The position numbers and the translations under genes are program-made. Below are positions 4,507 through 36,628 of a stretch of 44,199 bases of DNA, one piece after another. The stretch is from Bacteroidaceae bacterium (lineage in GTDB: Bacteria; Bacteroidota; Bacteroidia; Bacteroidales; Bacteroidaceae), in the NCBI GenBank assembly GCA_024398515.1, contig JAKSIZ010000018.1, positions 1-44,199 of the forward strand, given 5' to 3'. The notes below the pieces were generated by a model. It was not told where the DNA came from. It saw nothing but the letters and a program-made list of their open reading frames with translations, and did not search any database. Positions within the stretch are counted from its first letter, which is position 1. Each line of letters opens with the position of its first letter.

Positions 4507-4926
4507 ATGATTGACGGACTTATACAAGTTGAGACTCTTGAGTTCCACGACCATCGTGGAGTTCTCTCGTTTGCCGAGGCTGAGGAACACATTCCGTTCC
4601 CGATAAAACGGCTGTTTTGGATTTACGATATCAAAGAGGGCATGTCGCGTGGTGGCCATGCACACATCAAGTGCAAGCAGGCTATCATCGCCGTCAAGGG
4701 CACTTTCGACATCTACATTACCGACCTTCAGGAGGAGACTACAATACGCATGGACAAACCTAACCAGATTATCATCATCAACGAAGGCATCTGGTGCGAG
4801 TTGAAGAACTTTTCGGCTGATGCTGTTGTACTGGTTGCAACGTCGGAACACTTCGACCGCGAGGACTACCTCCAGCCTATGTCTGAGTACAGTCAATGGG
4901 TTGAACTTAACAAGTCGAACGCTTAG
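4507..4926 (+). CDS. WxcM/FdtA-like cupin: sugar 3,4-ketoisomerase family
   Basis: A 139-residue single-domain cupin of the WxcM C-terminal/FdtA/QdtA type. These enzymes isomerise dTDP-4-keto-6-deoxyglucose to the 3-keto sugar on the way to 3-amino sugars of surface glycans. Visible family motifs are the early HDHRGVLSF, the histidine-rich RGGHAHIKCKQ (about residues 54-64) and the VATSEHFDREDYL end. No other nucleotide-sugar genes are adjacent, so its pathway partners are elsewhere. The last nine or so codons (VELNKSNA) lie in the left arm of the palindromic element at 4902-5037, so the C-terminus appears to be repeat-derived. The start is fixed by the promoter. The family is secure; the exact reaction is inferred. 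Confidence 0.8.
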   Translation: MIDGLIQVETLEFHDHRGVLSFAEAEEHIPFPIKRLFWIYDIKEGMSRGGHAHIKCKQAIIAVKGTFDIYITDLQEETTIRMDKPNQIIIINEGIWCELKNFSADAVVLVATSEHFDREDYLQPMSEYSQWVELNKSNA

Positions 4927-5037
4927 GGCTGAAAAACATTGCTCCAATGTTGACCCGAACATTGCTCCAATGTTGACCCGAACATTGCAGCAATGTTTGA
5001 ACGAGTTTAACGCTCGACTTTAGAAACGTCAACGTTC
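4902..5037. repeat. Triple-palindrome element A
   Basis: Three 17-bp palindromes AACATTG-NNN-CAATGTT lie at 4935-4951, 4958-4974 and 4981-4997, an exact 23-bp period. The 6-nt spacer GACCCG appears twice. The loop is CTC in the first two and CAG in the third. The flanks are imperfect inverted arms: the left one runs from TGAAC at 4902 into AAGTCGAACGCTTA, and the right one holds TAACGCTCGACTT and ends at CGTTC (5037). The arms are homologous to those of elements B-E. The left arm overlaps the 3' end of the upstream gene. No transposase is encoded. Function unknown. Confidence 0.85.
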
Positions 5038-5093
5038 GCATTGTCGAACGATATGCGTCATTGTATTAAAAAATATAAAAAAAACGCTTGATG

Positions 5094-5125
5094 TTGGCAT
5101 TAGTGAAAAGTTTTTTTTACTTTTG
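5094..5125 (+). promoter_or_regulatory. Promoter of the ribE leader RNA
   Basis: TTG (5094-5096), 21 nt, then TACTTTTG (5118-5125), a good Bacteroidetes promoter. Transcription would begin near 5130, about 10 nt before the first helix of the structured leader and more than 200 nt before the ribE start codon. Confidence 0.7.
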
Positions 5126-5139
5126 CATCATATAAGAAC

Positions 5140-5319
5140 AGGCCGTATCGGTTCGATCGGGATACTCATCAAATAATAATATGAAACCGAGACCGCTGCC
5201 CAGTCAATGGCGGGCCACAACCTGCAAAGGCGAACAATTCGTTGTCGGTGGATTACAAAGACTCTGTAGCTCTCAAAACTTGTAATAGTCGGAGTTTCAT
5301 CACATCATCGGTACGGTCT
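5140..5319 (+). ncRNA. Structured RNA leader upstream of ribE (candidate riboswitch or sRNA)
   Basis: Base pairing read by eye gives a multi-helix RNA. A closing helix of 13 pairs joins 5140-5152 to 5307-5319, including G-U wobbles. A second helix of 10 pairs (ATGAAA/TTTCAT and CCGA/TCGG) joins 5181-5190 to 5289-5300. Inside lie three hairpins: GCCC/GGGC at 5198-5215, ACAA-TTCG-TTGT at 5234-5245 (a UUCG tetraloop), and ATTACAA/TTGTAAT at 5252-5286. It has its own promoter and ends 25 nt before the riboflavin synthase ATG. The conserved core words of the FMN (RFN) riboswitch were not found. It could be an unrecognised riboswitch, a protein-binding leader, or a free-standing sRNA. Confidence 0.6.
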
Positions 5320-5344
5320 TCTTTTGTCAAAACTTGATACCAAT

Positions 5345-5953
5345 ATGTTTAGCGGAATCGTAGAGGAATTTGCAACGGTTGTTGCCATCAGAAAGGACAG
5401 AGACAACATTGACTTTACTTGTAGGTGCTCGTTTACGGGCGAACTGAAAATAGACCAAAGCGTGTCCCACAATGGGGTATGCCTGACGGTTGTAAGCATC
5501 ATTGGCGACACATACGTGGTCACGGCAATGAAGGAAACGCTTGAAAGGTCGAACCTTGGGCAGTTGTGCGTGGGCGACAAAGTGAACGTAGAACGCTCGA
5601 TGATGCTCAATGGTCGCCTCGACGGACACATAGTTCAGGGCCACGTTGACCAGACAGCACGATGCACAAAGGTTGAAGATGCCAACGGAAGCACGTATTT
5701 CACATTCGAATATACCTACGACCACGAGATGGCAAAGCGCGGATACTTCACCGTTGACAAGGGCAGTGTTACCGTGAATGGCGTTTCACTGACCGTATGC
5801 AACCCAACGGAGAACACGTTCCAAGTGGCAATAATACCTTATACAATGGAACATACCAACTTCTGTGACATCAAGGTCGGCACGATGGTAAACATTGAAT
5901 TCGACATCCTCGGCAAATACATTGCCCGACTTTCACAGGAGTTAGGGAGCTAA
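5345..5953 (+). CDS. ribE: Riboflavin synthase, alpha chain
   Basis: A 202-residue protein made of two lumazine-binding repeats. It dismutates two 6,7-dimethyl-8-ribityllumazine molecules into riboflavin and the pyrimidinedione, the last step of vitamin B2 synthesis. Repeat 1 starts with the canonical MFSGIVEE and carries SHNGVCLTV and GHVDQTA. Repeat 2 carries VDKGSVTVNGVSLTV and PYTMEHTNF. Length matches the usual 195-215. The start at MFSGIVEE was chosen over an upstream Met at 5324, because all family members begin there. It stands alone, without the other rib genes, downstream of the structured leader at 5140-5319. Confidence 0.95.
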   Translation: MFSGIVEEFATVVAIRKDRDNIDFTCRCSFTGELKIDQSVSHNGVCLTVVSIIGDTYVVTAMKETLERSNLGQLCVGDKVNVERSMMLNGRLDGHIVQGHVDQTARCTKVEDANGSTYFTFEYTYDHEMAKRGYFTVDKGSVTVNGVSLTVCNPTENTFQVAIIPYTMEHTNFCDIKVGTMVNIEFDILGKYIARLSQELGS

Positions 5954-5965
5954 ACACTAAGAAAA

Positions 5966-5993
5966 CTCGAATTCTCGGACAATCGAGTTCTCG
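5966..5993 (+). repeat. 28-bp intergenic repeat, copy 1
   Basis: The block starts CTCGAATTCTCG and continues AATCGAGTTCTCG. It recurs as a reverse complement at 39563-39591 with a few differences. It can fold as ACTCGA/TCGAGT. It lies in the 74-nt gap between ribE and the GH3 gene. Possibly a short dispersed repeat; the role is not known. Confidence 0.5.
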
Positions 5994-6027
5994 AAAACAA
6001 CGAATAATTAATAAAAAAGAATAAGAT

Positions 6028-8253
6028 ATGAAACGACTTGTACTATCAGCATTTTCTATGCTTGCAATGATTGCAACGGCACAGTTGCCTTACCAAAATC
6101 CAGACTTATCGGCAAAGGAACGCGCCGAAGATTTGTGCTCTCGCCTTACTGTTGAGGAAAAGGCTAAGCTTATGGTAAACTCATCCGAGGCTATTCCACG
6201 CCTTGGCATACGCGAGTTCTCGTGGTGGAACGAGGCTCTTCATGGTGTGGCTCGCAATGGTTATTCTACCGTTTTCCCAAGTTGTATCGGTATGGCATCA
6301 AGTTTCGACGACACCTTATTATATAATATATATACTGCCGTCAGCGACGAAGGGCGTGCAAAGCATACCGCAAAGCACAAGAAGGGAGCCGTAAAACAGT
6401 ATGAGGGCGTTTCGTTCTGGACTCCTAACATCAATATCTTCCGCGATCCCCGATGGGGACGTGGGCAGGAAACTTACGGCGAAGACCCTTACCAGACAGG
6501 TCGCATGGGCTCAATCGTAGTCAAGGGATTGCAAGGCGAAGAGGGTCATAAGTATCGCAAGGCCTTCGCTTGTGCCAAGCATTTCGCTGTTCATAGCGGC
6601 CCTGAGAGCACCCGTCATCATCTAAATCTCGACAACATATCGCCACGCGACTTGTGGGAAACATATCTCCCAGCATTCAAGACTCTCGTTCAGAAGGGCG
6701 GAGTAAAGGAGGTTATGTGTGCATATCAAAGGCTCGATGGTGATCCTTGCTGTGGCAGCAACCGACTTCTTACACAGATTCTCCGCAACGAATGGGGCTT
6801 CGATGGTGTTGTCGTAAGTGATTGTGGTGCCATTCGCGACTTCTATCAGAAGGGAAGACATGAGGTTTCAGCCGATGCTCCGTCTGCTGCAAGCAAGGCT
6901 GTGCTGAGCGGTACTGACGTGAATTGCGGCAAAGTCTATCTCAATCTGCCTGAAGCTGTAGAGAAAGGATACATCAAGGAGGCTGACATTGACGTGAGCG
7001 TGAAGCGTCTGCTCGAAGGTAGATTTGAACTTGGCGACTTCGATCCTGACGAACTTAACGACTGGACAAAGATTCCTGAGTCTGTTGTATGCTCACCAGA
7101 GCACAAGGCTCTTGCTCTTCAGATGGCGCGCGAGCAGATGGTTCTGCTTCAAAACAAGAAGAATACATTGCCACTCGCAAAGGACGAACGCGTAATTCTC
7201 ATGGGTCCAAACGCTGCCGACTCCGTAATGCTTTGGGGTATTTACTATGGTAAACCGACTCATTCCGTCACCGTAAAGGAAGGATTGGAGAAGAAACTTG
7301 GTTCTATTCCTTATTATAAAGCGTGCGCTCTTACGTCTTTCAACGAGGCTGCATCGAAAAACATACGCAAGGTGCTTGAATATGGCACTGACGATTTCAT
7401 CCCTGAAGTCGAAGCCGAGAGGGAGGTTTATTCAATTGAATCAATACTCAATGCAGCCAAAGACTACACCACAGTCATCTTCGTCGGTGGCATATCACCT
7501 CTTATTGAGCGCGAGGAGGCCAAGGTTGATTTGCCTGGTTTCAAGGGTGGCGACCGCACAAGTATCGAACTGCCACAGGTTCAACGCGACATTCTTGCTG
7601 CTCTTCACAAGGCTGGAAAGAAGGTTATATTCGTGAATTGCAGTGGTTCGGCTGTAGCTCTCGCTCCTGAAACAAAGTCTTGCGATGCTATTCTTCAGGC
7701 ATGGTACCCAGGCGAACAGGGGGGTCATGCAGTTGCCGACGTTCTCTATGGCGACTACAACCCATCGGGAAAACTGCCCGTAACGTTCTATAAAGACGAC
7801 AGTGTGCTCAAAGACTTCGAGGACTACAGCATAAAAGGCTATACTTATCGCTATCTCGAAACAAAACCTCTGTTCCAATATGGGTTCGGATTAAGTTATA
7901 CTTCGTTCAGGCTCTCCGCTCCTACCCTCACACCTACTGGCAAAAAGAACGGGTACAAACTGTCTCTCGACATAACTAATACTGGCAAAAAGGACGGTGC
8001 AGAGGTTGTTCAGCTTTATATGAGATGCGTTGACGACAAGGAAGGACCGCTGAAGACTCTTCGTGGTTACAGTCGTGTAGAACTCGCAGCAGGATCTACC
8101 AAACAGGTGACAATAGACGTTCCGGAATCAACATTCGAACGTTTCGACCCTCAGACAAACACCATGCGGGTTGTCCCAGGCAACTACGAACTCCTTTACG
8201 GCACGTCGTCCGACAATAAAGACCTCAAAAAACTTAAAGTCACAGTAGAGTAA
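6028..8253 (+). CDS. Glycoside hydrolase family 3, secreted beta-xylosidase/beta-glucosidase
   Basis: A 741-residue protein with a signal peptide (MKRLVLSAFSMLAMIATAQ), the GH3 N-terminal barrel, the alpha/beta sandwich and a C-terminal fibronectin III-like domain (about residues 640-730). The catalytic nucleophile is Asp265 in VVVSDCGAIRDF. The substrate-pocket motifs RDPRWGRGQETYGEDPYQTG and KHFAVHSGPESTRH are present. The SDCGA form and overall length resemble plant and bacterial beta-D-xylosidases more than the SDW beta-glucosidases, so xylo-oligosaccharide hydrolysis in the periplasm is the better guess. No lipobox or cell-surface sorting domain is visible. It follows ribE by 74 nt with no clear TAnnTTTG promoter, so readthrough is possible. 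It has no SusC/D neighbours. Confidence 0.93.
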   Translation: MKRLVLSAFSMLAMIATAQLPYQNPDLSAKERAEDLCSRLTVEEKAKLMVNSSEAIPRLGIREFSWWNEALHGVARNGYSTVFPSCIGMASSFDDTLLYNIYTAVSDEGRAKHTAKHKKGAVKQYEGVSFWTPNINIFRDPRWGRGQETYGEDPYQTGRMGSIVVKGLQGEEGHKYRKAFACAKHFAVHSGPESTRHHLNLDNISPRDLWETYLPAFKTLVQKGGVKEVMCAYQRLDGDPCCGSNRLLTQILRNEWGFDGVVVSDCGAIRDFYQKGRHEVSADAPSAASKAVLSGTDVNCGKVYLNLPEAVEKGYIKEADIDVSVKRLLEGRFELGDFDPDELNDWTKIPESVVCSPEHKALALQMAREQMVLLQNKKNTLPLAKDERVILMGPNAADSVMLWGIYYGKPTHSVTVKEGLEKKLGSIPYYKACALTSFNEAASKNIRKVLEYGTDDFIPEVEAEREVYSIESILNAAKDYTTVIFVGGISPLIEREEAKVDLPGFKGGDRTSIELPQVQRDILAALHKAGKKVIFVNCSGSAVALAPETKSCDAILQAWYPGEQGGHAVADVLYGDYNPSGKLPVTFYKDDSVLKDFEDYSIKGYTYRYLETKPLFQYGFGLSYTSFRLSAPTLTPTGKKNGYKLSLDITNTGKKDGAEVVQLYMRCVDDKEGPLKTLRGYSRVELAAGSTKQVTIDVPESTFERFDPQTNTMRVVPGNYELLYGTSSDNKDLKKLKVTVE

Positions 8254-8313
8254 GTCAACGTTACGAACCTGAAACTTGAGAGGGCATGTAAAAAAGTTTG
8301 AATTATTGAACGA

Positions 8314-9465
8314 ATGGATTTACTCAATCACGAAAACATAGACCGTTCAACAGCGGAAGTAGAGTATCATCCGCTTAAACCATTTTTGCCCAAAGAATGC
8401 AAGGTGCTGTTTCTTGGCAGTTTCCCTCCTCAAAGGAAACGATGGTGCATGGATTTCTTCTACCCAAACTTCATCAATGACCACTGGAGGATTGAGGGGC
8501 AGATATTCTTTGACAACAAGAATTACTTCGTGGATGAGGAAAACAAGTCTTTCCGCTTGGAAGAGATTGTGCAGTTTCTTGAAGAGAAAGGCATAGGTTT
8601 CTTCGACACAGCAACAGCTGTTCATCGTCAGATAGACAATGCTTCGGACAAGTTTCTTGAAGTGATAGAAGAAACCGACATTGAAGGTTTGCTCACGCAA
8701 GTTCCCGAATGTCATACTATTGCCGTAACAGGTGAGAAGGCTGCTGAAACCATTTGCAGACACTTTGGCACCAACGAACAGCCAAAGGTCGGAACATACA
8801 TCACACTGCACTGCAAGAACCTCAAACGCGACATTCGACTATATCGTCTTCCGTCATCCTCCCGCGCCTACCCTCTCAAGCTCGATAAGAAAGCCGACGC
8901 GTATCGCAAGATGTTCGTTGAATGCGGCATCATGAATGACACCAATAATGAGCAAACCAAGCGACTTATATTTCGACGTTGGCAAGAAACAGATGCCAAT
9001 ACATTATATAAATATGCAAGCGATCCTGAAGTAGGTCCTCGTGCAGGCTGGGAACCACACAAGAGTGTGGAGGAAAGTCTGGAAACAATCCGAACTATCT
9101 TTGGAGGTGAAACCATGTGGGCAGTTGTGCTCAAGGACACCAATGAACCTATTGGCTGCATTGGCTATTTACCAAAGGGCACTACAAACATCGAAGTTGG
9201 CGAAAATGAGGTAGAAGTTGGTTACTGGATAGCACGCCCATACTGGAATCTGGGTATCTGCACCGAGGCTCTCACGTGGATGATAGATTATTGTTTTAAT
9301 GTAAAAGGGATAACTGCACTATGGTCAGATTTCTTCATCGATAATCCTGCTTCTGGCCGTGTCATGGAGAAATGTGGGTTCACCGATACTGGCATTGAAA
9401 CTTTATGTCCAGACCTATACGGAGGTGCTGACAGACTGGTGCGGATAAAGAAATTAGTACGATAA
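8314..9465 (+). CDS. Fusion: uracil-DNA-glycosylase-like domain + GNAT acetyltransferase
   Basis: A 383-residue protein in two parts. Residues about 20-205 resemble the mismatch/uracil-DNA glycosylase superfamily: VLFLGSFPP near residue 31 takes the place of the usual GxxPG loop, and LPSSSRAYP near 179 the place of the catalytic-loop serine motif. Residues about 215-383 are a RimJ/RimL-type GNAT acetyltransferase: RLIFRRWQETDANTLYKYA, VEVGYWIARPYWNLGICTEAL (acetyl-CoA loop, degenerate) and NPASGRVMEKCGF. The two parts are in one uninterrupted frame. An internal Met207 (8932) could serve as a separate start for the GNAT part. The role could be base excision with an accessory acetyltransferase. 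Activity of either half is unproven. Confidence 0.75.
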   Translation: MDLLNHENIDRSTAEVEYHPLKPFLPKECKVLFLGSFPPQRKRWCMDFFYPNFINDHWRIEGQIFFDNKNYFVDEENKSFRLEEIVQFLEEKGIGFFDTATAVHRQIDNASDKFLEVIEETDIEGLLTQVPECHTIAVTGEKAAETICRHFGTNEQPKVGTYITLHCKNLKRDIRLYRLPSSSRAYPLKLDKKADAYRKMFVECGIMNDTNNEQTKRLIFRRWQETDANTLYKYASDPEVGPRAGWEPHKSVEESLETIRTIFGGETMWAVVLKDTNEPIGCIGYLPKGTTNIEVGENEVEVGYWIARPYWNLGICTEALTWMIDYCFNVKGITALWSDFFIDNPASGRVMEKCGFTDTGIETLCPDLYGGADRLVRIKKLVR

Positions 9466-9483
9466 TTATGAAAGCAAAACTCA

Positions 9484-11753: not shown

Positions 11754-13286
11754 TTAGTGCTTAAAATGCCTTGTGCCAGTGAAGAGCATACAGATGCCAA
11801 GTTCGTTGGCTTTCTTGATACAATCCTCGTCGCGGATGCTTCCGCCTGGCTCAACTATCGTAGTTACTCCATATTTTGCTGCGAGTGCAACGGTGTCGTC
11901 GAACGGAAGGAAACCATCGGATGCCAGTATCAAACCTTCTGTGAAACCTGCTGCCTTTGCTTCGTTGAGTGCTATTTCGGCAGAGCCTACGCGGTTCATC
12001 TGACCAGCACCAACGCCAAGAGTATGTCCATCCTTCGCTACAACGATTGCATTCGACTTCACATGCTTGACGATGTTCCAGCCAAACTGTATGTCGTCCA
12101 TCAATGCTGCGTCTGGTTTTGTCTCTGTTACGCACATTTCCTGAGTTATCTGCACGTTCTTAGTGTCGAGTTGTTGCACGAGCAATCCCCCATTAACGCT
12201 CACGTATTGATTGTGTGCAGCGGTGTCTTCGCTCATATCAACCTTCATTACGCGCAGATTTTTCTTCGTTGACAGTATTTCCATTGCCTCTGGAGTATAG
12301 GAAGGAGCCATGACAATCTCAAGGAAGATTGGTTTCATTCCCTGTGCAACTTCCTTCGTAACTTCACGATTGCAAGCAACAATGCCACCATAAATGCTGA
12401 CCTTATCACTTTCGTATGCCTTCTGCCAAGCCTCTTCGATAGTCTCGCCGATGGCTGCGCCACATGGATTCATGTGCTTCAGTGCCACGCAGAATGGTTG
12501 TTTGAAGTCGCGGACGATGTTAAGTGCGGCATTTGCATCCTGTATATTATTATATGAAAGTTCCTTTCCCTGGAGTTGTTCTGCCGTTGCAAGTGAGAAT
12601 GGCACTGCTTCAAGTGCTTTATAGAACTTTGCTGTCTGGTGAGGATTCTCGCCATAACGCAGACCTTGCTTCACGTCAAATTCAAGGAAAAGTTTCTCAG
12701 AAAGCTCTGCCTGCTTGCGCATGTAGGTTGCAATGCACATGTCATATTCAGCAGTATGAGTGTAAGCCTTGGCTGAAAGCTGCAATCGAGTTGCCTTCGA
12801 CGTGTTGCCGTTTGCCTTGATTTCTTCGAGAATCATGCCGTAATCGTCCGGATTGCACACTACAGTCACGTCGTTCCAGTTCTTTGCTGCACTGCGAAGC
12901 ATTGAAGGACCACCTATGTCGATGTTCTCAATAGCATCTGCCATCTCCACGCCTTCCTTTGATATTGTCTGTTTGAATGGGTAAAGATTTACGCAAACCA
13001 TGTCGATAAACTCGATGCCATTGTCTTTCAATGCCTGAAGATGTGACGGTTCGTCGCGGCGTGCGAGCAGTGCACCGTGTACTTTCGGGTGTAATGTTTT
13101 CACTCTGCCATCGCAAATCTCAGGGAAACCCGTGACTTCGCTGATGCCGATTGTCTTTACTCCCGACTGCTCAAGAAGTTTCTGAGTGCCGCCAGTAGCA
13201 ATAATTTCCCACCCACAAGACTGCAATCCTTGCACGAATTCTACGAGTCCTGTCTTGTCGCTAACGCTTACTAATGCTCTTTTCAT
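11754..13286 (-). CDS. purH: Bifunctional AICAR transformylase / IMP cyclohydrolase
   Basis: A 510-residue bifunctional enzyme for the last two steps of IMP synthesis. The N-terminal cyclohydrolase (MGS-like) part shows ALVSVSDKTGLVEF, TGGTQKLL, GRVKTLHPKVHGALLARRD and NLYPF. The C-terminal transformylase part shows YGENPHQTA and the catalytic Lys-His in VALKHMNPCGAA, then SDGFLPFDDTV and EPGGSIRDEDCI. Full length for the family. It lies between purM (19 nt upstream) and purD (5 nt downstream). Confidence 0.97.
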   Translation of the reverse strand: MKRALVSVSDKTGLVEFVQGLQSCGWEIIATGGTQKLLEQSGVKTIGISEVTGFPEICDGRVKTLHPKVHGALLARRDEPSHLQALKDNGIEFIDMVCVNLYPFKQTISKEGVEMADAIENIDIGGPSMLRSAAKNWNDVTVVCNPDDYGMILEEIKANGNTSKATRLQLSAKAYTHTAEYDMCIATYMRKQAELSEKLFLEFDVKQGLRYGENPHQTAKFYKALEAVPFSLATAEQLQGKELSYNNIQDANAALNIVRDFKQPFCVALKHMNPCGAAIGETIEEAWQKAYESDKVSIYGGIVACNREVTKEVAQGMKPIFLEIVMAPSYTPEAMEILSTKKNLRVMKVDMSEDTAAHNQYVSVNGGLLVQQLDTKNVQITQEMCVTETKPDAALMDDIQFGWNIVKHVKSNAIVVAKDGHTLGVGAGQMNRVGSAEIALNEAKAAGFTEGLILASDGFLPFDDTVALAAKYGVTTIVEPGGSIRDEDCIKKANELGICMLFTGTRHFKH

Positions 13287-13305
13287 GTTGTTTTGATTAA
13301 GAAAT

Positions 13306-14310
13306 TTATTTGATTACTACATTGTTTTCTCCCTTTACGACCTTGCCAATGATGCTTGCCTTTTCGCCATGCGAGGCAAGGATTTCCATTGCACGTGGTG
13401 CTTCCTCGGCTGGTACGACCACTACCATGCCTATTCCCATATTGAAGATATTGAACATTTCACGGTGTGGAACGCCGCCTTTCTCCTCAAGGAATTTGAA
13501 TACCGGCAGTATTTCCCATGTGCCTTCTTCGATTTCTACTGCCTGACCTTCCTTCAAGACGCGCGGAATGTTCTCGTCGAAACCGCCTCCGGTAATGTGA
13601 CAGATGGCATGAACGTCGCATTGGCGTATCACGTCCAACACTTGTTTCACGTAAATCTTTGTAGGTGTCAACAGCCATTCGAGCGTTTCTTTGTCGTTCA
13701 TCAGATTGTTGTCTGCCAAGATTTTACGCACAAGACTGAAGCCATTGCTATGTACTCCCGACGATGCTATGCCTACGAGTACGTCGCCTTCAGCCACCTT
13801 GCTGCCGTCGATGAGCTTTGACTTCTCTACCACTCCCGTTGTATATCCGGCAATATCATACTCACCACCAGCATACATGCCAGGCATTTCGGCTGTCTCG
13901 CCGCCTACAAGTGCGCATCCGGCTTGCCTACAACCTTCGGCAACGCCTTTTACTATTGCCTCAACCTTTGCAGGTATGTTGTGTCCGATAGCAACATAGT
14001 CGAGGAAGATGAGTGGTTCGGCACCCTGTGCAAGCACATCGTTCACGCACATTGCAACGGCATCAATGCCGATGGTATCGTGTTTGTCGAGTGCAAATGC
14101 GAGTTTAAGTTTTGTGCCAACTCCGTCGGTCCCACTGACGAGTACAGGTTCCTTGACGTTCAACGCACTGAGGTCGAACATTCCGCCAAACGAGCCTATG
14201 CCTCCCATGCTGCCTTTTCGTTCGGTCGATTTCACGTGTTGTTTGATTCGGCTCACCACTTCGTAACCTGCTTCGAGGTTCACGCCAGCCTTTTCGTAAC
14301 TTACTGCCAT
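13306..14310 (-). CDS. purM: Phosphoribosylformylglycinamidine cyclo-ligase (AIR synthetase)
   Basis: A 334-residue AIRS-fold enzyme converting FGAM to AIR with ATP. Motifs are [25 protein letters not shown] (nucleotide loop), [31 protein letters not shown] and [15 protein letters not shown]. Complete. It is separated from the upstream PurF-like gene by 216 nt that contain triple-palindrome element B, so expression may be reset there, although no TAnnTTTG promoter was found in that gap. Confidence 0.97.
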
Positions 14311-14362
14311 TGTATTGTTTTTATTATTTATGTTTATACTCTTTCGTTATCGTTCTATTGAT

Positions 14363-14507
14363 TGAACGTTAAGACTTTTTTAGGTGAACGCTTAAACCTC
14401 CGGAAAACTGTAGCAGTTTTGGATCGAAAACTGTAGCAGTTTTGACTTGAAAACTGTAGCAGTTTTCTTCGGAGTTAAAAGGTCGTGCCAAGAAAGCCAT
14501 ACGTTCA
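14363..14507. repeat. Triple-palindrome element B
   Basis: Three copies of the 17-bp palindrome AAAACTG-TAG-CAGTTTT at 14404-14420, 14427-14443 and 14450-14466 (period 23; spacers GGATCG and GACTTG). The inverted arms run from TGAACG (14363) to CGTTCA (14507). The inner arm ends TTAAACCTCCG and CGGAGTTAA can pair, so the three small hairpins would sit on one long stem. It fills most of the 216-nt gap between the PurF-like gene and purM; nothing else is seen in the gap. Confidence 0.9.
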
Positions 14508-14526
14508 TGTCAAAAAAAAATTACGT

Positions 14527-15921
14527 TCAGTTCACGTCATCATCAACGTCGAGGTCGTTGTGATTGTATAAGACGGTTGGGTATTCACCCGTGAAACATG
14601 CAAGGCAAAGTTCGGAGCATCCGAAAGTCGATGCCGTTGTTGATTCAGGCGAGAGATAGCCGAGTGAGTCGGCTTGAATGCACTCACATGCCTCTTCGAG
14701 CGTACGGTTCGAACACAACAGCTCCTCGTAAGTCGAAGTGTCAACGCCGTAGAAGCACGGATGTTTCATCATAGGGCTTGCAATTCTTACGTGTACTTCC
14801 TTTGCCCCAGCATCGCGAAGCAGTTTCACTATCTGAAGGCTCGTGGTTCCGCGAACTATCGAGTCGTCGATAAGTGCAATTCGTTTGCCCTTGACAATGC
14901 TGCGAAGGGCAGAGAGTTTTAGCTTCACACCACGCTCACGCATCTTTTGTGTAGGCTGAATGAACGTGCGGCCTACGTAACGGTTCTTTATCAATCCCAT
15001 CTCGTAAGGCAGTCCACTCTCCTCGGCATAACCCATTGCAGCACTCAGGCTTGAGTCAGGAACGCCCACAACAATATCGGCGTCGGCAGGACATTCACGG
15101 AACAATCTTCGTCCGGCTTCCTTTCGGAAAGCATGGACATTGCAGCCATCAATGTCGCTGTCAGGGCGTGCAAGGTAGATGTATTCCATTGCACAGAGCT
15201 TGCGACGATGGAACTGTGAGTACTTTCTGCTGCGCAATCCCTTTTCGTCAATGGTAACAATCTCGCCAGGTTCAACGTCGCGCACGAACTCTGCACCAGC
15301 CAAATCGAACGAGCAACTCTCACTACTTACCACCCAAGCATCGCCGAGTTTGCCTATTGCAAGCGGTTTGATGCCGTATTTATCGCGGCAAGCATAGATG
15401 CGGTTCTTGGTCATTATGAGGAATGCAAAGCCGCCTTCCATCATGTTCAATGCGTCGATGATGGTGAAAATACGTGGCTCGTTGCCGTCTTTTTTGATTA
15501 GATGAGCTAAGAGTTCACTCTCGTTTCCCGTCTGCAAGAGGTTGCCTTTGTTCTCAAGATAGTCAGTAATCTGCGCCGAATTAACCAGACTTCCGTCACA
15601 TGCAACGGCAAAATCGCCCGTGCGATGACGGAAATAAAGCGGTTGCACATCGTTCAGACTGGCATTGCCGGAGGCACGAAGTCCCTTGCCTGAACTGGTG
15701 TATCGAACATTTCCAAGCCCCATGTTGCCTGTCAATGTAGCAAGGTTGTCCTTGTTGAATATGTCGCTTATAAGCCCCTTACCGCTCAATCTGTGCCCTT
15801 CACCGTTGCCATTGAAGGTAACGATGCCCGCACCTTCCTGCCCTCTATGCTGTATGGCATGAAGTCCATAGTATATTACCTGCGCAGCATGTGGAGTACC
15901 ATAAACACCAAATACACTCAT
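14527..15921 (-). CDS. PurF-like amidophosphoribosyltransferase lacking glutaminase residues
   Basis: A 464-residue protein that aligns by eye along its whole length with Bacillus-type PurF, which makes phosphoribosylamine from PRPP and glutamine. The phosphoribosyltransferase half is intact: PRPP loop ALIDDSIVRGTTS (about 349-361), and iron-sulphur-type cysteines C243, C389, C435 and C439/C442. The N-terminal glutaminase half is not. The family starts (M)CGVFG, but here it is MSVFG with no Cys nucleophile, and an in-frame TAG nine codons upstream leaves no room for a propeptide. The Asn of the NGNLVN motif is Asp109, and the Asp of the SSDTE motif is Glu134; Arg73 is kept. It may be an ammonia-dependent enzyme, a regulatory paralog, or have a new role. 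It is next to a divergent purC paralog. Confidence 0.85.
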   Translation of the reverse strand: MSVFGVYGTPHAAQVIYYGLHAIQHRGQEGAGIVTFNGNGEGHRLSGKGLISDIFNKDNLATLTGNMGLGNVRYTSSGKGLRASGNASLNDVQPLYFRHRTGDFAVACDGSLVNSAQITDYLENKGNLLQTGNESELLAHLIKKDGNEPRIFTIIDALNMMEGGFAFLIMTKNRIYACRDKYGIKPLAIGKLGDAWVVSSESCSFDLAGAEFVRDVEPGEIVTIDEKGLRSRKYSQFHRRKLCAMEYIYLARPDSDIDGCNVHAFRKEAGRRLFRECPADADIVVGVPDSSLSAAMGYAEESGLPYEMGLIKNRYVGRTFIQPTQKMRERGVKLKLSALRSIVKGKRIALIDDSIVRGTTSLQIVKLLRDAGAKEVHVRIASPMMKHPCFYGVDTSTYEELLCSNRTLEEACECIQADSLGYLSPESTTASTFGCSELCLACFTGEYPTVLYNHNDLDVDDDVN

Positions 15922-22876: not shown

Positions 22877-22979
22877 AATTTATTGTTTTGTCTGTAGTGT
22901 TTATATTTTTTCTTATGTCTTCAGTTCCTTATAACCTTAAAACCTTATTTTCTTACGAGCTTATGTTTGATGGTTTCAC

Positions 22980-23132
22980 GACGCGAGCGTATTGCTTTTC
23001 AAGAACGACCTTTATACTCGGAGAAAAACTGTAGCAGTTTTGGATCGAAAACTGTAGCAGTTTCGGGTTGAAAACTGTAGCAGTTTTCTGCGGACTTAAA
23101 CGTTCGTTCCACAAAAGCCATGCGTTCGCGTC
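22980..23132. repeat. Triple-palindrome element C
   Basis: Palindromes AAAACTG-TAG-CAGTTTT at 23025-23041, 23048-23064 (last base changed) and 23071-23087, period 23, spacers GGATCG and GGGTTG. This copy has the best-preserved inverted arms: from GACGCGAGCG on the left to CGTTCGCGTC on the right, with the conserved inner words GCTTTT, GAACGA and TTTA..CTCGG paired across the element. It lies in the 364-nt gap between pyrF and pyrE. The rest of that gap (22877-22979 and 23133-23240) shows no feature. Confidence 0.9.
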
Positions 23133-23240
23133 ACGACAAGCTATGTGTCGAGCCGGCAAATGCCAACGTGAAAGACGAAAGTTCGTATATGTATTCATTC
23201 TTGATTAAGTGTTATCTCGCATTTAATTTTTGCTTTCAAT

Positions 23241-30098: not shown

Positions 30099-30791
30099 AT
30101 GAATTGTAAGTTACTGAGATATAACATCGGTCTTGGTGCAGAGGCTTTCTCTACCGAAAAGGATGCTGAACTGCCTTATCACGTCATTCAGGCTCACCAG
30201 ACTCATACGGATCGTATTGCCGTAATCACCGACCCAACTACCACACGCGAACAGTTGGAGGGCATTGATGCTCTGATTACTCGGCTGCCAAACTGCGCAA
30301 TAGGTGCACGGACTGCCGACTGTGTACCAGTGTTATTATACGACCCCGTGCGGCGCATCGTTGCTGCTGTCCATAGCGGATGGCGCGGTACGGTATTGAA
30401 AATCTCGCAAAAGACCATTCGCCGCATGGCTGATGAGTTTGGCACCCAAGCACAAGACCTCCGTGCCGTCATTGGTCCAAGCATTGGCATGGATGCGTTT
30501 CAAGTGGGCGAAGAAGTGGTCGAAGCATTCCGAAACGCTGGTTTCCCATTACACCTTATATATAAATATAGGGAGGGTGAAACTATACCATTATATAATG
30601 GTCACCATATTGACCTTTGGAAAGCAAACAAGTGGTTGCTCACCGAGGCAGGAGTGAATGCCGAGAACATACAGATTGCCGGCGTGTGTTCATACACTCA
30701 CCACGACCGTTTCAACTCTGCCCGTTGGGACAAGAACAATAAAACCCAACGCACTATCAACGCCATTAAGCTTAGTTGTTTGGAAGATTAG
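30099..30791 (+). CDS. pgeF: YfiH/PgeF-family purine nucleoside phosphorylase (laccase-domain protein)
   Basis: A 230-residue protein of the former 'multicopper polyphenol oxidase' family. The family is now known for purine nucleoside phosphorylase/adenosine deaminase activity and linked in E. coli to peptidoglycan editing. The metal-site residues are visible in QAHQTHTD, GARTADCVPVLLYD and AAVHSGWRGT, with SYTHHDRFNSAR near the end. Length is normal. It is divergent from pyrC, and a purine-salvage role would fit the neighbouring nucleotide genes. The start codon is almost on the predicted transcription start. Family sure; physiological role less so. Confidence 0.9.
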   Translation: MNCKLLRYNIGLGAEAFSTEKDAELPYHVIQAHQTHTDRIAVITDPTTTREQLEGIDALITRLPNCAIGARTADCVPVLLYDPVRRIVAAVHSGWRGTVLKISQKTIRRMADEFGTQAQDLRAVIGPSIGMDAFQVGEEVVEAFRNAGFPLHLIYKYREGETIPLYNGHHIDLWKANKWLLTEAGVNAENIQIAGVCSYTHHDRFNSARWDKNNKTQRTINAIKLSCLED

Positions 30792-30861
30792 TCGTTTAGT
30801 CGTTTGGGAAATGGTCGTTTCGTCGTTTGTGAGATGGTCGTTTCGTCGTTTCTATTTCATG
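30791..30861 (+). repeat. Imperfect 23-bp tandem repeat downstream of pgeF
   Basis: About three units built of GTCGTTTCGTCGTTT plus a variable tail ending in ATG: 30791-30813, 30814-30836 and 30837-30861. The unit itself contains a doubled GTCGTTT. It begins at the last base of the pgeF stop codon. The period is not a multiple of 3, so it is not coding. Probably a small minisatellite. Confidence 0.75.
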
Positions 30862-30887
30862 GAGATTACAAGTATAATTTTGACGGT

Positions 30888-30990
30888 TGAACGAATGGCT
30901 TTCGGAAGACGAGCGTTTAACTCGGAAAAAAGTTGTACAACTTTCAGTGAAAAGTTGTACAACTTTTGCTCGAAAGTTGTACAACTTTTT
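30888..30990. repeat. Triple-palindrome element D (right arm missing)
   Basis: Three perfect 16-bp palindromes AAAGTTGTACAACTTT at 30929-30944, 30951-30966 and 30973-30988, period 22. The left arm (TGAACGAATGGCTTT...CGAGCGTTTAACTCGG) is clearly homologous to the arms of A-C and E. No matching right arm follows: the sequence instead turns into an unrelated ACCCCCT/AGGGGT hairpin near 30993-31022. The palindrome word differs completely from the other elements. Confidence 0.85.
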
Positions 30991-31929: not shown

Positions 31930-31959
31930 GTGCATCAATACAAATTGGTGCACTTTTTT
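31930..31959 (+). terminator. Terminator of the rplU-rpmA operon
   Basis: GTGCATCAAT (31930-31939) pairs with ATTGGTGCAC (31944-31953), ten pairs including one G-U, with an ACAA loop, then six T. It ends the ribosomal-protein operon 43 nt after the rpmA stop. Confidence 0.9.
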
Positions 31960-31970
31960 GTTGAAAAATG

Positions 31971-32001
31971 ATTGTAGTTTGAAAAATTTTGTGTAAGTTT
32001 G
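31971..32001 (+). promoter_or_regulatory. Promoter of the outer-membrane-like gene
   Basis: ATTG (31971-31974), 19 nt, TAAGTTTG (31994-32001), 28 nt before the chosen start at 32029. It lies just after the rpmA terminator and excludes the longer frame that opens at 31999. Confidence 0.65.
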
Positions 32002-32028
32002 CAGTCGGAAACTATAAACATCAAGAAT

Positions 32029-33039
32029 ATGAAACGTATTATCACAGGAATAGCAATCGTTGTGTTAAGTGTATCTTACTGTTTAGCACAAGGCACAGCA
32101 GGCCTCATCGGAGAGAACGACAAGAAAATTCTTAACCACCTTGACCTATCGTTCACGGCAGGAACAACAGGCCTCGGCTTTGACCTTGCAGCTCCTATTG
32201 GCAATATAGTACAGATCCGTGCAGGCTATTCTATTATGCCTCACTTCAAATATAATATGGACTTCGGCATACAAGTAGGCGACGATCCGGCAACAAGTCA
32301 AACTAAATTTGAAAAACTATCGGGCATGTTGACACAACTGACAGGCAACAAAGTTGACAACCATGTGACTATGGAAGGACGTCCACGCTACTATAACTTC
32401 AGTTTGCTGATTGACGTTTTCCCATTCAAGAACAATAAGCACTGGCACTTTACAGGCGGATTCTTCGTTGGTCCAAGCAAAGTTGCCGATGCAATAAACA
32501 GTATTGGCGACATGCAATCGCTCATGGGCGTGAACATTTACAATAACATCTACGACAAAGTCTATAGAGGCGAACCACTGATAAAATGGAACGAAAACGA
32601 CATTTACCTTGACCCTGCATACGAGGACAAGATACTCTCATACGGACGAATGGGCATACATGTCGGCGATTTTAATAAGGACATCTATGCCGACGTAAAT
32701 GGACAGAGCACCCTAATTCACAAAAAAGGTGACCCATATATGATGGAACCAGGCGAAGACGGCATGGTAAGTGCCGATGCAACAGCAAATTCTTTCAAAC
32801 CTTATATAGGGTTCGGATATGGCGGAAGGCTTATCAAGAACAACGACAAGTATAAAATTTCATTTGATTGTGGCGTAATGTTCTGGGGCGGAAAGCCTGA
32901 TGTCATCACTCACGATGGCGTGAACCTGACACAAGACTTGGACAATATCTGGGGCGATTTGGACAACTATGTCAAGTTTGCAAAGAAAGTTACGGTCTTT
33001 CCAGAGCTCAATCTTAGAATTTCAAGGACAATATTTTAA
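32029..33039 (+). CDS. Secreted protein, probable outer-membrane beta-barrel, unknown function
   Basis: A 336-residue protein with a clear signal peptide (MKRIITGIAIVVLSVSYCLAQ). The body alternates short polar turns and amphipathic strands (FDLAAPIGNIVQIRAGYSI, PYIGFGYGGRLIKNNDKYKI), and the chain ends in Phe (LNLRISRTIF), as beta-barrel outer-membrane proteins do. It has no known enzyme motif. The start was chosen at the signal peptide rather than ten codons upstream, because the promoter overlaps the upstream option. It is monocistronic, between the ribosomal operon and proS. Function is not recognised. Confidence 0.75.
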   Translation: MKRIITGIAIVVLSVSYCLAQGTAGLIGENDKKILNHLDLSFTAGTTGLGFDLAAPIGNIVQIRAGYSIMPHFKYNMDFGIQVGDDPATSQTKFEKLSGMLTQLTGNKVDNHVTMEGRPRYYNFSLLIDVFPFKNNKHWHFTGGFFVGPSKVADAINSIGDMQSLMGVNIYNNIYDKVYRGEPLIKWNENDIYLDPAYEDKILSYGRMGIHVGDFNKDIYADVNGQSTLIHKKGDPYMMEPGEDGMVSADATANSFKPYIGFGYGGRLIKNNDKYKISFDCGVMFWGGKPDVITHDGVNLTQDLDNIWGDLDNYVKFAKKVTVFPELNLRISRTIF

Positions 33040-33047
33040 CAGTTTAT

Positions 33048-33078
33048 TTTGCGATTACCGTTTTTTTTAGTAACTTTG
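33048..33078 (+). promoter_or_regulatory. Promoter of proS
   Basis: TTTG (33048-33051), 19 nt, TAACTTTG (33071-33078), followed by a leader of about 35 nt that contains the AT-rich word TTATATATAATAAGG (33088-33102). Confidence 0.8.
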
Positions 33079-33118
33079 CCGACCAATTATATATAATAAG
33101 GTATCTTTTTATAATTTT

Positions 33119-34600
33119 ATGGCAAAAGAACTAAAAGATTTAACGAAAAGAGCGGATAACTACAGCCAGTGGTACAATGACCTTATAGTCAAGGCCGACC
33201 TTGCTGAGCAGTCTGCTGTGCGTGGCTGCATGGTAATCAAGCCATACGGCTATGCTATCTGGGAAAAGATGCAACGTCAGCTCGACGACATGTTCAAGCA
33301 GACTGGTGCAGTTAATGCTTACTTCCCATTACTTATTCCAAAATCATTCCTTTCACGCGAAGCAGAGCACGTTGAAGGCTTTGCAAAGGAGTGTGCTGTT
33401 GTGACGCATTACCGTTTGAAGACAAACGAAACTCACGATGGAGTAGTTGTTGACCCTGAAGCAAAACTCGAAGAAGAACTAATCATTCGCCCGACTTCCG
33501 AGACAATAATATGGAATACGTATAAGAATTGGATACAGTCATGGCGCGATCTGCCTTTGATGTGCAATCAGTGGTGCAACGTGATGCGCTGGGAAATGCG
33601 TACTCGTCCGTTCCTCCGCACGTCTGAATTCCTGTGGCAAGAAGGTCATACAGCCCATGCAACACGCGAAGAAGCTGAGAAGGAAGCACAGCAGATGCTG
33701 AAGGTTTATGCAGACTTCGCCGAGAATTATATGGCAGTTCCTGTAGTACAAGGCGTAAAAAGCGAGACTGAACGCTTTGCCGGCGCTCTCGACACATATA
33801 CAATCGAGGCAATGATGCAGGACGGAAAAGCATTGCAAAGTGGTACAAGTCATTTCCTCGGACAGAACTTTGCAAAGGCTTTCGACGTGAAGTTCCTCAA
33901 TAAAGACAATAAAGAAGAATATGTTTGGGCAACAAGTTGGGGTGTAAGCACACGACTCATCGGTGCCCTCATAATGACACATAGCGACGATAACGGTCTC
34001 GTTCTTCCTCCTGCACTTGCACCTATTCAGGTTGTAATAATCCCAATTGCAGGCAAGGGAGAGCAGAAGGCGGCTGTCGATGCAGCATTGATGCCTGTTA
34101 TTGACAACCTAAAGAAGTCTGGCATTAGTGTTAAGTATGACGATGCAGACAACAAACGTCCAGGATTCAAGTTTGCTGATTACGAGTTAAAGGGTGTTCC
34201 TGTACGACTTGTACTCGGTGCAAGAGACTTGGAGAATGGCACAATTGAAGTTATGCGCCGTGACACTCTTGAAAAGGAAACAGTTCCATTCGTAGGAATT
34301 GAAGAATATGTTAAGAATCTTCTTGATGACATCCAGAAGAACATGTTGGCAAAGGCAAAGGCATGGCGCGACAGCATGATTTACGAATGTGATGACTATG
34401 AGGAGTTCAAGGAAAAGGTAAAGAACGGTGGTTTCTTCCTTTGCCACTGGGATGGCACAGCCGAAACAGAAGCAAAGATTAAGGAAGATACACAGGCAAC
34501 AATCCGTTGCGTACCATTCGGCTATGAGCAAACTCCAGGCGTTGATATGGTAACTGGCAAGCCAAGCAAGGCAAGAGTTATAATTGCAAGAAGTTATTAA
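33119..34600 (+). CDS. proS: Prolyl-tRNA synthetase (short, archaeal/eukaryotic-like type)
   Basis: A 493-residue class II synthetase that charges tRNA-Pro. It is the shorter type without the bacterial editing insertion (INS) and with a C-terminal extension. Class II motif 2 region reads [27 protein letters not shown] (motif around residues 141-167), preceded by [11 protein letters not shown]. The anticodon-binding domain starts near residue 300 ([15 protein letters not shown]), and the chain ends in the typical aromatic RVIIARSY. It is monocistronic with its own promoter. Confidence 0.97.
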
Positions 34601-34649
34601 TAGAACATTGTAAATAAAATATTAAATTGTTAAATTGTAAATTAAGATC

Positions 34650-35351
34650 ATGATTTATTCAACAGAAGTACAAAACATGTGCTGTGTTGCCAAAGGTCCA
34701 AACCACGGACCAGCTCCAATTCCTGAAGAAGGAAAGTGGGTAAAGGCAAAAGAGATAAAGGATATCTCTGGTATGACACACGGAATCGGTTGGTGCGCTC
34801 CTCAGCAGGGTGCATGTAAACTCTCACTGAACGTAAAGGACGGTATCATCGAAGAGGCTCTCGTAGAGACTATCGGTTGTTCAGGTATGACTCACTCAGC
34901 CGCTATGGCATCTGAAATCCTTCCTGGTAAAACCCTCCTCGAAGCATTGAACACAGACCTTGTTTGCGATGCAATCAACACTGCAATGCGTGAACTCTTC
35001 CTTCAGATTGTCTATGGACGCACTCAGTCTGCTTTCTCTGAAGGCGGTCTTACTATAGGTGCTGGCCTCGAAGACCTTGGTAAGGGATTCGTTTCACAGG
35101 TAGGAACACTCTATGGCACAAAGGCAAAGGGTACTCGTTACCTCCAGTTGACAGAAGGATACATCACAAAGATGTTCCTCGACAAGAACGACCAAGTATG
35201 TGGTTATCAGTTTGTCCACATGGGTAAACTGATGGATGCTCTCAAGAAAGATATGAGTAATGCCGACGCTATAAAGGCTGCAACCGGAACTTACGGTCGC
35301 ACGACTGAAGAGCAAGGTGCTGTTAAATCTATTGACCCACGTAAAGAATAA
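34650..35351 (+). CDS. NifU-like iron-sulphur scaffold-type protein (partner of GGGtGRT)
   Basis: A 233-residue protein resembling the N-terminal scaffold domain of NifU/IscU. The conserved core is GACKLSLNVKDGIIEEALVETIGCSGMTHSAAMASEILPGKTLLEAL, with cysteines in GWCAPQQGACK and TIGCSG available as metal ligands (written here in parts: residues about 48-95). The C-terminal half (AGLEDLGKGFVSQVGTLYGT onward) is less familiar. It is immediately followed, after 5 nt, by a GGGtGRT-family gene; this pairing recurs in Bacteroidetes and Clostridia. The cargo or client is not known. The name reflects fold similarity only. Confidence 0.75.
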   Translation: MIYSTEVQNMCCVAKGPNHGPAPIPEEGKWVKAKEIKDISGMTHGIGWCAPQQGACKLSLNVKDGIIEEALVETIGCSGMTHSAAMASEILPGKTLLEALNTDLVCDAINTAMRELFLQIVYGRTQSAFSEGGLTIGAGLEDLGKGFVSQVGTLYGTKAKGTRYLQLTEGYITKMFLDKNDQVCGYQFVHMGKLMDALKKDMSNADAIKAATGTYGRTTEEQGAVKSIDPRKE

Positions 35352-35356
35352 CGACT

Positions 35357-36364
35357 ATGCGCGAAGTAAAATTTGAATCTCAGGACCGTCGTATGAAGCA
35401 GGTACTCGCTGCTTTAAACGCAAACGGCATTGCTTCAGTTGAAGAAGCTGAACAGATATGTGAACAAGCAGGCCTTGATCCTTACAAGACTTGTGAAGAA
35501 ACTCAGATGATATGCTTCGAAAATGCAAAGTGGGCATACGTCTGTGGTAGTGCAATTGCAATTAAGAAGTGTTGCAAGAATGCTGCTGATGCTGCCGAGG
35601 CAATCGGTATTGGTCTTCAGGCTTTCTGCATTCCTGGCTCTGTTGCTGACGATCGCAAGGTTGGTCTCGGCCATGGAAACCTTGCTGCACGCCTTCTCCG
35701 CGAAGAGACTCAGTGCTTTGCATTCCTTGCAGGCCACGAAAGTTTCGCTGCTGCTGAAGGTGCAATCAAGATTGCAGAAATGGCAAACAAGGTACGCAAG
35801 AACCCATTGCGCGTTATCCTTAACGGTCTCGGAAAGGATGCTGCAATGATTATCAGCCGTATCAATGGCTTTACATATTGCCAGACTCAGTTCGACTATT
35901 ATACAGGTAAGGTTGAAGTCATCAACCGCACAGCTTATAGCGATGGACCTCGTGCAAAGGTTAATTGCTATGGTGCCGACGATGTTCGCGAAGGTGTTGC
36001 AATTCTTTGGCTTGAGGATGTTGACGTGTCAATCACGGGTAACTCTACAAACCCAACTCGCTTCCAGCACCCAGTTGCAGGTACTTACAAGAAGGAACGC
36101 ATCCTTGCTGGTAAGCCATACTTCTCAGTAGCATCAGGTGGTGGTACGGGTCGTACACTTCACCCAGACAACATGGCTGCAGGTCCTGCATCTTATGGTA
36201 TGACTGATACTCTCGGCCGTATGCACTCTGACGCTCAGTTCGCTGGTTCTTCTTCAGTTCCTGCACACGTTGAGATGATGGGCTTCCTCGGTATGGGTAA
36301 CAATCCAATGGTAGGTTGCACAGTTGCTTGTGCCGTAAACGTTGCTCTTGCACTGTCTAAGTAA
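35357..36364 (+). CDS. GGGtGRT family protein, unknown function
   Basis: A 335-residue protein carrying the motif that names the family, ASGGGTGRTLHPDNMAAGP (around residues 257-275). It is rich in cysteines for a cytoplasmic protein (EQICEQAGLDPYKTCEETQ, VCGSAIAIKKCCKN, VGCTVACAVN), which would fit metal or iron-sulphur binding, and it has no signal peptide. It lies 5 nt after the NifU-like gene and is followed by a strong terminator, so the two form a closed operon. No catalytic assignment is possible from sequence; a role in metallocofactor handling is inferred from the partner gene. Confidence 0.85.
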   Translation: MREVKFESQDRRMKQVLAALNANGIASVEEAEQICEQAGLDPYKTCEETQMICFENAKWAYVCGSAIAIKKCCKNAADAAEAIGIGLQAFCIPGSVADDRKVGLGHGNLAARLLREETQCFAFLAGHESFAAAEGAIKIAEMANKVRKNPLRVILNGLGKDAAMIISRINGFTYCQTQFDYYTGKVEVINRTAYSDGPRAKVNCYGADDVREGVAILWLEDVDVSITGNSTNPTRFQHPVAGTYKKERILAGKPYFSVASGGGTGRTLHPDNMAAGPASYGMTDTLGRMHSDAQFAGSSSVPAHVEMMGFLGMGNNPMVGCTVACAVNVALALSK

Positions 36365-36386
36365 GTTTAGGCTATACATCAATACC

Positions 36387-36424
36387 AATCTCCTACAGCC
36401 TTTTGGTTGTAGGAGATTTTTTTG
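36387..36424 (+). terminator. Strong intrinsic terminator after the GGGtGRT operon
   Basis: AATCTCCTACAGCC (36387-36400) pairs with GGTTGTAGGAGATT (36405-36418), 14 pairs with one G-U, loop TTTT, followed by a T run to about 36423. Confidence 0.95.
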
Positions 36425-36480
36425 TTCCTTCGCGTTTCATACCGTTGTTTGCGCTGATGTGAAGCAGTGTTTGCTATGAG

Positions 36481-36628
36481 GCGAACATCAGACTTTCATG
36501 GGACGAGCTTTATAACCGAGGGAAAACTGCTACAGTTTTCGAGTGGAAACTGCTACAGTTTTCAAGTCAAAACTGCTACAGTTTTTTTCCTACTATAAAG
36601 GTCGTTCTTAAAAAGCATTACGCTCATG
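36481..36628. repeat. Triple-palindrome element E (inverted orientation)
   Basis: Palindromes AAAACTG-CTA-CAGTTTT at 36523-36539, 36546-36562 (first base changed) and 36569-36585, period 23. The loop is the reverse complement of that in B and C, and the arms are also swapped: the right arm read on the minus strand (GCGTAATGCTTTTTAAGAAC) matches the left arm of element C. So this copy is inserted in the opposite orientation. It lies in the 525-nt gap between the GGGtGRT gene and the acyl-CoA synthetase; 36629-36780 shows nothing else. Confidence 0.9.

Follow-up and report, generated by a model that had tools for sequence, protein, structure and literature searches.

Positions 1 to 44,199 of contig JAKSIZ010000018.1 (assembly GCA_024398515.1), from an uncultured gut bacterium of the Bacteroidaceae, contain five copies of an element in which three tandem palindromes stand between inverted arms; this whole stretch of 44,199 nucleotides is called the window below. 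Elements of the same build recur at regular distances in the host genome, with closely similar palindrome half-sites and drifted surroundings. We give an even chance to the reading that these arrays are maintained DNA-level protein-binding sites and that together they form a chromosome-wide ladder, which would probably organise the chromosome. Interspersed bacterial palindromes are usually regarded as relics of transposition. In the present case, the regular spacing, the fixed number of units and the conservation of half-sites while adjacent sequence has drifted speak for a genome-wide DNA device that is maintained. No description of such a ladder was found in the literature, which was searched without most subscription journals.

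Architecture of the elements in the window

A strict palindrome-agnostic scan of the window returned five triples and no others, and none in five Markov shuffles; a looser scan added one A/T-rich match at 36792. The original prediction had proposed a family of five triple-palindrome elements, and all five lie where it had placed them, with the following parts:

4887 to 4934, plus strand: left arm of element A, overlapping the 3' end of an open reading frame (ORF) at 4465-4926
4935 to 4997, no strand: core of element A, palindromes 4935-4951, 4958-4974 and 4981-4997; AACATTG-nnn-CAATGTT, subfamily 2, period 23
4998 to 5047, minus strand: right arm of element A, inverted
14356 to 14403, plus strand: left arm of element B
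14404 to 14466, no strand: core of element B, palindromes 14404-14420, 14427-14443 and 14450-14466; AAAACTG-TAG-CAGTTTT, subfamily 1
14467 to 14516, minus strand: right arm of element B, which occupies the purF-purM gap
22977 to 23024, plus strand: left arm of element C
23025 to 23087, no strand: core of element C, palindromes 23025-23041, 23048-23064 and 23071-23087; subfamily 1
23088 to 23137, minus strand: right arm of element C
30880 to 30927, plus strand: left arm of element D, the right arm being absent
30928 to 30988, no strand: core of element D, palindromes 30929-30944, 30951-30966 and 30973-30988; AAAGTTG-TA-CAACTTT, subfamily 3, period 22
36473 to 36522, plus strand: arm of element E
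36523 to 36585, no strand: core of element E, palindromes 36523-36539, 36546-36562 and 36569-36585; subfamily 1, orientation opposite to B and C
36586 to 36633, minus strand: opposite arm of element E

The palindromic units of A, B, C and E measure 17 bp and follow each other with a period of 23 bp; B, C and E share the palindrome AAAACTG-TAG/CTA-CAGTTTT. In element D, units of 16-18 bp repeat every 22 bp. Both arms consist of one sequence of about 48 nt, placed in inverted orientation on the two sides of the core, and the inverted arms and their one-sided loss in D are as had been described. Within each arm, a 22-bp unit that contains words like CGAnCGTTT is directly repeated two or three times, the repeats keeping helical phase with the core; arm conservation declines outward, reaching about 64 bp from the core. 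The elements had also been taken as intergenic, which does not wholly hold for element A, given the overlap of its left arm.

Copy number and number of units

A sample of 578 kb of contiguous host contigs (C1, C12, C23, the first 100 kb of C34, and C10, which is the window) was searched for elements of at least two units. It contained 56 elements, from which about 257 would be extrapolated genome-wide (assembly 87.8% complete). In the same sample, 136 of 137 exact palindromes fall within elements, the single outsider being located at a contig end. For one palindrome type, 182 exact sites were counted in the 2.65-Mb host genome, compared with 0 for the pattern read backwards, and 23 is the commonest period reported by Tandem Repeats Finder (TRF; 37 rows). 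A covariance model built from 23 copies gave at least 150 scored matches in this genome, one site often being reported on both strands; the search for further copies thus yielded many.

When 95 unique elements were pooled, exactly three units were counted in 93 and two in the remaining 2. Four palindrome subfamilies were distinguished, with 51, 25, 11 and 6 three-unit elements for subfamilies 1 to 4. As some members of the pooled set were selected via subfamily 1 matches, these proportions are not free of bias. The five copies first noticed were only a sample, and neither the division into four subfamilies nor the regularity of the spacing nor the half-site constraint had been noticed.

Conservation of half-sites

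Between copies of one subfamily, the half-sites are 91-100% identical and the loops 71-100%, whereas the spacers are 58-64% identical in three subfamilies (87% in subfamily 4, which has 6 copies only), the inner arms 54-63% and the outer arms 33-42%. Whole arms have a mean identity of 50-54% within a subfamily and 43% between subfamilies, no pair exceeding 75%; random genomic stretches reach 28%. Because the arms have drifted to this extent while the half-sites have not, the copies appear to be old, with chiefly the dyads retained. Furthermore, if whole tracts were copied or converted, the spacers would become homogeneous as well, and the contrast between half-sites and spacers therefore supports half-sites kept by selection.

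When the arms alone were used as query on the 578 kb, 96 of 112 known arms were recovered, in 53 of the 56 elements. Eight matches were found away from cores, one of them strong and located at the same contig end as the stray palindrome. With this sensitivity, the search gave no sign of decayed copies devoid of palindromes.

Spacing and gene context

The 56 elements define 51 gaps with a mean of 10.3 kb, a median of 9.2 kb and an interquartile range of 7.8-12.4 kb; the extremes are 4.7 kb and 28 kb, and the coefficient of variation (CV) is 0.40. Five null models, in which elements were placed at random in intergenic gaps (five gap-length thresholds, 101 to 250 eligible gaps), gave mean CV values of 0.83-0.93, and the observed CV was reached by 0 of 5000 draws in each of them. 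Gaps shorter than 4.7 kb, of which 15-19 were expected under the intergenic null, were not observed. The 28-kb void includes two TonB-receptor (SusC-like) genes within a run of large same-strand ORFs. The subfamilies do not cluster along the chromosome: 17 of 52 neighbouring elements were alike, compared with 16.6 by permutation (the set includes one double-counted element). This regular spacing, which spans four subfamilies, points to a role on the scale of the chromosome.

Among 53 elements, 32 lie in codirectional, 13 in divergent and 8 in convergent gaps; the other gaps of at least 100 bp (n=105) are divided into 50, 33 and 22, respectively. Since these distributions are close, the elements seem not to be tied to transcript ends or promoters, and a placement bias towards terminators or promoters was rejected, the orientation bias also being small. 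No core lies within any ORF of at least 600 bp, genes having been called crudely as longest ORFs and core-crossing ORFs below 600 bp (below 450 bp in the orientation scan) being excluded by construction.

Folding and covariation

The original prediction had pictured one long stem capped by three small hairpins. For all five elements of the window, the predicted fold is a single long hairpin (z -4.0 to -8.5) in which palindrome 1 pairs with 3 in B to E and palindrome 2 with 3 in A; the long hairpin was thus recovered, without the three caps and without covariation of the arms. Within elements of the 23-copy alignment, arm-arm pairing amounts to 56.0%, compared with 56.3% when arms are shuffled between elements. 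Two-sided changes were counted in 39 arm pairs versus 34.8 in shuffled sets, and 27 of 500 shuffles reach 39. For arms and palindromes combined, the count is 47 versus 36.2, above all 500 shuffles; the palindromes contribute 8 of their 21 pairs to it, versus 1.3 when shuffled, with a signal that comes from elements A and D. A base-paired long arm stem was therefore rejected as the selected feature, arm covariation being no better than in shuffled sets, and the covariation of the palindromes would fit DNA dyads and hairpins equally well.

Thus, the strong folds and the palindrome covariation leave some room for an element acting as RNA, that is, an intrinsic terminator, a stabiliser of transcript ends or a structured small RNA formed through the long hairpin. 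We regard this as unlikely. In addition to the absence of arm covariation, the share of elements in divergent gaps and the small orientation bias speak against it, the loop is found in both orientations, and neither the helical phasing nor the regular spacing has a rationale at the RNA level. No element of the window matched an Rfam family at the gathering score; the only match was a 6S RNA (Bacteroidales-1, RF01693, 131 bits) at 5141-5324, about 95 bp past element A.

Proposed mode of action

Taken together, the period, the compensated dyad symmetry, the weak dependence on gene orientation and the lack of arm covariation point to the binding of a protein at the DNA level. Two suggestions of the original prediction agree with this: three protein sites two helical turns apart would suit the 22-23-bp phasing, and a structured regulatory DNA is compatible with the evidence. 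We propose that the three identical 7+7-bp dyads, 22-23 bp or about two helical turns apart, would lie on one face of the helix, each dyad serving as the recognition site of a dimeric, sequence-specific protein. The inward-pointing 22-bp direct repeats of the flanks may supply weaker, cooperative sites, which would account for a conservation fading outward. The four palindrome types could be recognised by a set of paralogous proteins or by a single protein with relaxed specificity. Selection would retain the resulting nucleoprotein rungs, one per about 9 kb and in any intergenic setting, and their most likely function would be to organise the chromosome, as borders of loop or supercoil domains, by tethering, or as marks for segregation or nucleoid occlusion.

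Analogous arrays in related genomes

The covariance model found no match in 59 relatives, 35 of them of the same genus (strict filters, the best 49 candidates scored per genome), nor in 5 genomes identified via the pur locus. Palindrome-agnostic scans revealed similar arrays, built on different palindromes, in three related genomes (G064, G001 and G065). In G064, TGTTASTAACA forms 148 tandem pairs in 1.7 Mb, compared with 0 for the backwards pattern, and two arrays have 22-bp repeats on their flanks that contain the word CGCGAGCG or CGCTCGC. Its six measurable gaps, a second palindrome type included, range from 18.7 to 23.8 kb (mean 20.6 kb, CV 0.09), a regularity that 0 of 20000 random placements attained. 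The pattern GTAATYARGnnCTRATTAC gave 62 and 47 strand hits in G001 and, among 60 genomes of the genus, recurs in G021 alone. The 16 gaps among the G001 matches listed have a mean of 33 kb, a minimum of 14.4 kb and a CV of 0.56 (P 0.008 against an exponential null); as the positions are those of the exact matches listed plus one array found by TRF, these gaps may conceal imperfect arrays. In G065, four units like AACATYTAAGATGTT follow each other at 23 bp within 60 kb. The half-site AACAT recurs in the host genome, G064 and G065.

Elsewhere such arrays are scarce. A sample of 587 kb from 22 genomes of the genus held two arrays of at least three units, one of them in G001, and none was found in 477 kb of Bacteroidales pur loci; in G030, a five-unit array is palindromic only in part. 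Median protein identity between the host and G064 is 57% (50 matched ORFs) and between the host and G001 52% (25 ORFs), so that the host appears about equally distant from both. Other 22-bp tandem arrays, some of them palindromic, were noticed in genomes of the genus (L202 12531-12635, L195 6481-6591 and L144 5405-5528), and, in the genus sample, a period of 22 is one of the more frequent in the TRF output (14 rows). Contigs C12 and C23 of the host genome (G000) and contigs C2, C3, C5, C8, C9 and C10 of G064 have a terminus no more than a few hundred bases from an array; short-read assemblies thus seem to break at arrays, which partly hides the spacing.

Candidate partner proteins

The ParB_N profile (PF02195) was not found in the host genome (87.8% complete), G064 or G065; for G064 and G065, this absence carries little weight. 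All 33 other genomes of the genus with a completeness of 80% or more contain the domain, as do 36 of 39 when completeness is disregarded; G001, in which the arrays are sparser, has it too. A TetR expansion was rejected, with 2 TetR_N matches in the host genome versus 0-5 in nine others, and a search with SMC_N returned many ABC-type ATPases and was uninformative.

Because the ParB model is blank in three genomes that all bear arrays, the ladder may replace ParB in some lineages. This belongs to a broader proposal, which we advance tentatively and with more doubt than belief: that these arrays represent a chromosome-organising system of Bacteroidales not described before, in which phased palindrome arrays form a quasi-periodic ladder, each species having a palindrome set of its own, with several palindromes in one genome, and fast-evolving, sequence-specific binding proteins. 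If this is true, the ladder, with rungs about 9, 20 or 33 kb apart, would provide a physical ruler to test whether the sequence can encode domains of bacterial chromosomes, and a case of a chromosome-wide binding code that turns over rapidly between related species.

Alternative explanations

Several observations weigh against maintained binding sites in a chromosome-wide ladder. No binding protein has been pinned down, the ParB_N and TetR_N profile searches having given no candidate. The half-site identities are inflated by detection via the palindromes themselves, with at most two mismatches per unit, and by the setting of element orientation from the best core match, and the palindrome-agnostic scans detect only arrays that repeat one palindrome. 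In G064, one contig includes more than 60 kb devoid of three-unit arrays, and such arrays are absent from another contig, of 37 kb, which is odd for an essential ladder. The remaining points concern mobility. In 51 of 53 relatives, the purF-purM gap measures -1 to 40 bp; the two exceptions have 110 and 136 bp, and the window has 216 bp. The orthologous site of the relatives thus lacks the element, and element B was probably added in the host lineage. Two inverted copies in G064 share 84% identity over 331 bp, which means that the elements are able to multiply, and target immunity could equally produce regular spacing.

These points are the strength of the main competitor, a MITE-like (miniature inverted-repeat transposable element) non-autonomous mobile element spread within the lineage, whose transposase would read palindromes and arms and whose spacing would result from target immunity or from selection against crowding. 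The inverted-repeat arms common to the copies and the four subfamilies with their own arm flavours, which resemble copy lineages, also favour it. We nevertheless consider this explanation rather doubtful. Among 92 elements, no duplication offset is common to many, the best of thousands of offset pairs giving 4/92 for 5-mers (0.4 expected) and 10/92 for 3-mers (2.9 expected), although old copies could have lost their duplications. The arms are inverted, but their conservation weakens with distance from the core, where a mobile element would be most sharply conserved at its termini, and no sharp conserved end was seen. The 578 kb contain neither an arm-flanked gene that could be an autonomous parent, within the sensitivity of the arm search, nor palindrome-less arms, and the palindromes are retained in copies whose arms have diverged to about half identity. 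The host genome has no intact Y1 transposase (one weak match, E 3e-6, with an internal stop in a 133-amino-acid frame), the search having been confined to this transposase class. The suggestion of a non-autonomous mobile element finds support in the empty orthologous site and not in duplications, ends, decayed copies or flanked genes. Among the other genomes searched, Y1 matches numbered one in G001, none in G030 and none in G064, which has hundreds of units.

A member of the REP/REPIN/BIME families, spread by a RAYT protein, is hardly credible, even if the elements are extragenic, palindromic, of high copy number and grouped in small arrays. The only Y1 trace in the host is the interrupted match above, no GTAG/CGTC end tag is present (GTAG occurs only across the loops of subfamily 1 and of some subfamily 2 units), and the units are A/T-rich and in direct repeat, not alternating. 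The REPIN-like origin originally considered is accordingly not supported. It is also quite improbable that the arrays stop or inform a DNA-tracking machine (a Chi-like nuclease signal or a loop-extrusion block) and thereby mark own versus foreign DNA, chromosomal DNA carrying such a mark at no more than a certain distance from any point. Regular spacing and the near irrelevance of gene orientation would suit such marks. Viral contigs lack the exact tandem patterns found for subfamilies 1-3 and for G064, element B has no match in phage or plasmid collections, and double-palindrome scans of genome-contig (subfamily 1) and viral-contig collections gave no match, the host's own record possibly lying outside them. 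However, any host-specific repeat is also expected to be absent from viruses, and the voids in the host and in G064 count against marks of this kind.

The purF, purM-like and purH products encoded at 11754-15921 of the window share 85-88% identity with their G064 counterparts (L029). Across 39 other genomes of the genus, the best purF match reaches 36% identity, and one genome has none, which suggests horizontal transfer of the pur operon or its differential loss. Where the window has element B, G064 has another kind of tandem array (L029 5400-5470), with units of about 9 nt (TCCGGGTAG / TCCGGCAAA).

Comparison with known systems

Iteron arrays of plasmid origins and transposon ends with TnsB sites have a period of about 22 bp, two helical turns per site. 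The elements share this period; iterons and TnsB sites, however, are direct repeats at one locus or element end, whereas hundreds of palindromic triples are distributed here over a chromosome. By the features tested, the elements are neither REP/REPIN, BrickBuilt nor an Rfam element, and they may resemble BIMEs and Noc or SlmA sites in their mode of action.

In the passages available, REPs, BIMEs and REPINs of enterobacteria and pseudomonads are described as extragenic palindromic units of more than 100 copies in small, regularly spaced groups, for which protein binding and chromosome roles have been proposed (PMC2817692, PMC3733652). The present elements are alike in all these structural respects. 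In the REP definition, one end of the palindrome bears a GTAG or CGTC tag (PMC3733652); such a one-end tag and an intact Y1 gene were not found here, and the A/T-rich composition, the direct tandem triples, the regular chromosomal spacing and the phased arms set these elements apart.

According to the passages seen, the BrickBuilt MITE of Porphyromonas gingivalis (19 copies) carries 1 to 22.8 repeats of 23 nt in tandem between a leader and a tail, and IS5-like terminal repeats GAGACCTTTGCA (PMC4596501). Like the present elements, it is intergenic and from Bacteroidales, long stem-loops are predicted for it and dyad symmetry is mentioned; unlike them, its leader and tail differ, its repeat number is variable instead of nearly always three, and regular spacing is not described in those passages. 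Within 150 bp of the 95 elements, no copy of GAGACCTTTGCA with fewer than two mismatches was found, the best match having two mismatches in 5 elements and at least three in 90.

The nucleoid-occlusion proteins Noc and SlmA bind sequence-specifically to chromosome-wide palindromic sites, about 70 Noc-binding sites (NBS) of 14 bp and 24-52 SlmA-binding sites (SBS), respectively (PMC4726725). These sites are fewer than the arrays described here and, in the passages available, have neither arms nor fixed triples. Noc belongs to the ParB family, of which the ParB model finds no member in the host genome.

As a minor observation, a short tandem repeat of GTCGTTTCGTCGTTT-like units occupies positions 30790-30855 of the window, directly ahead of element D.

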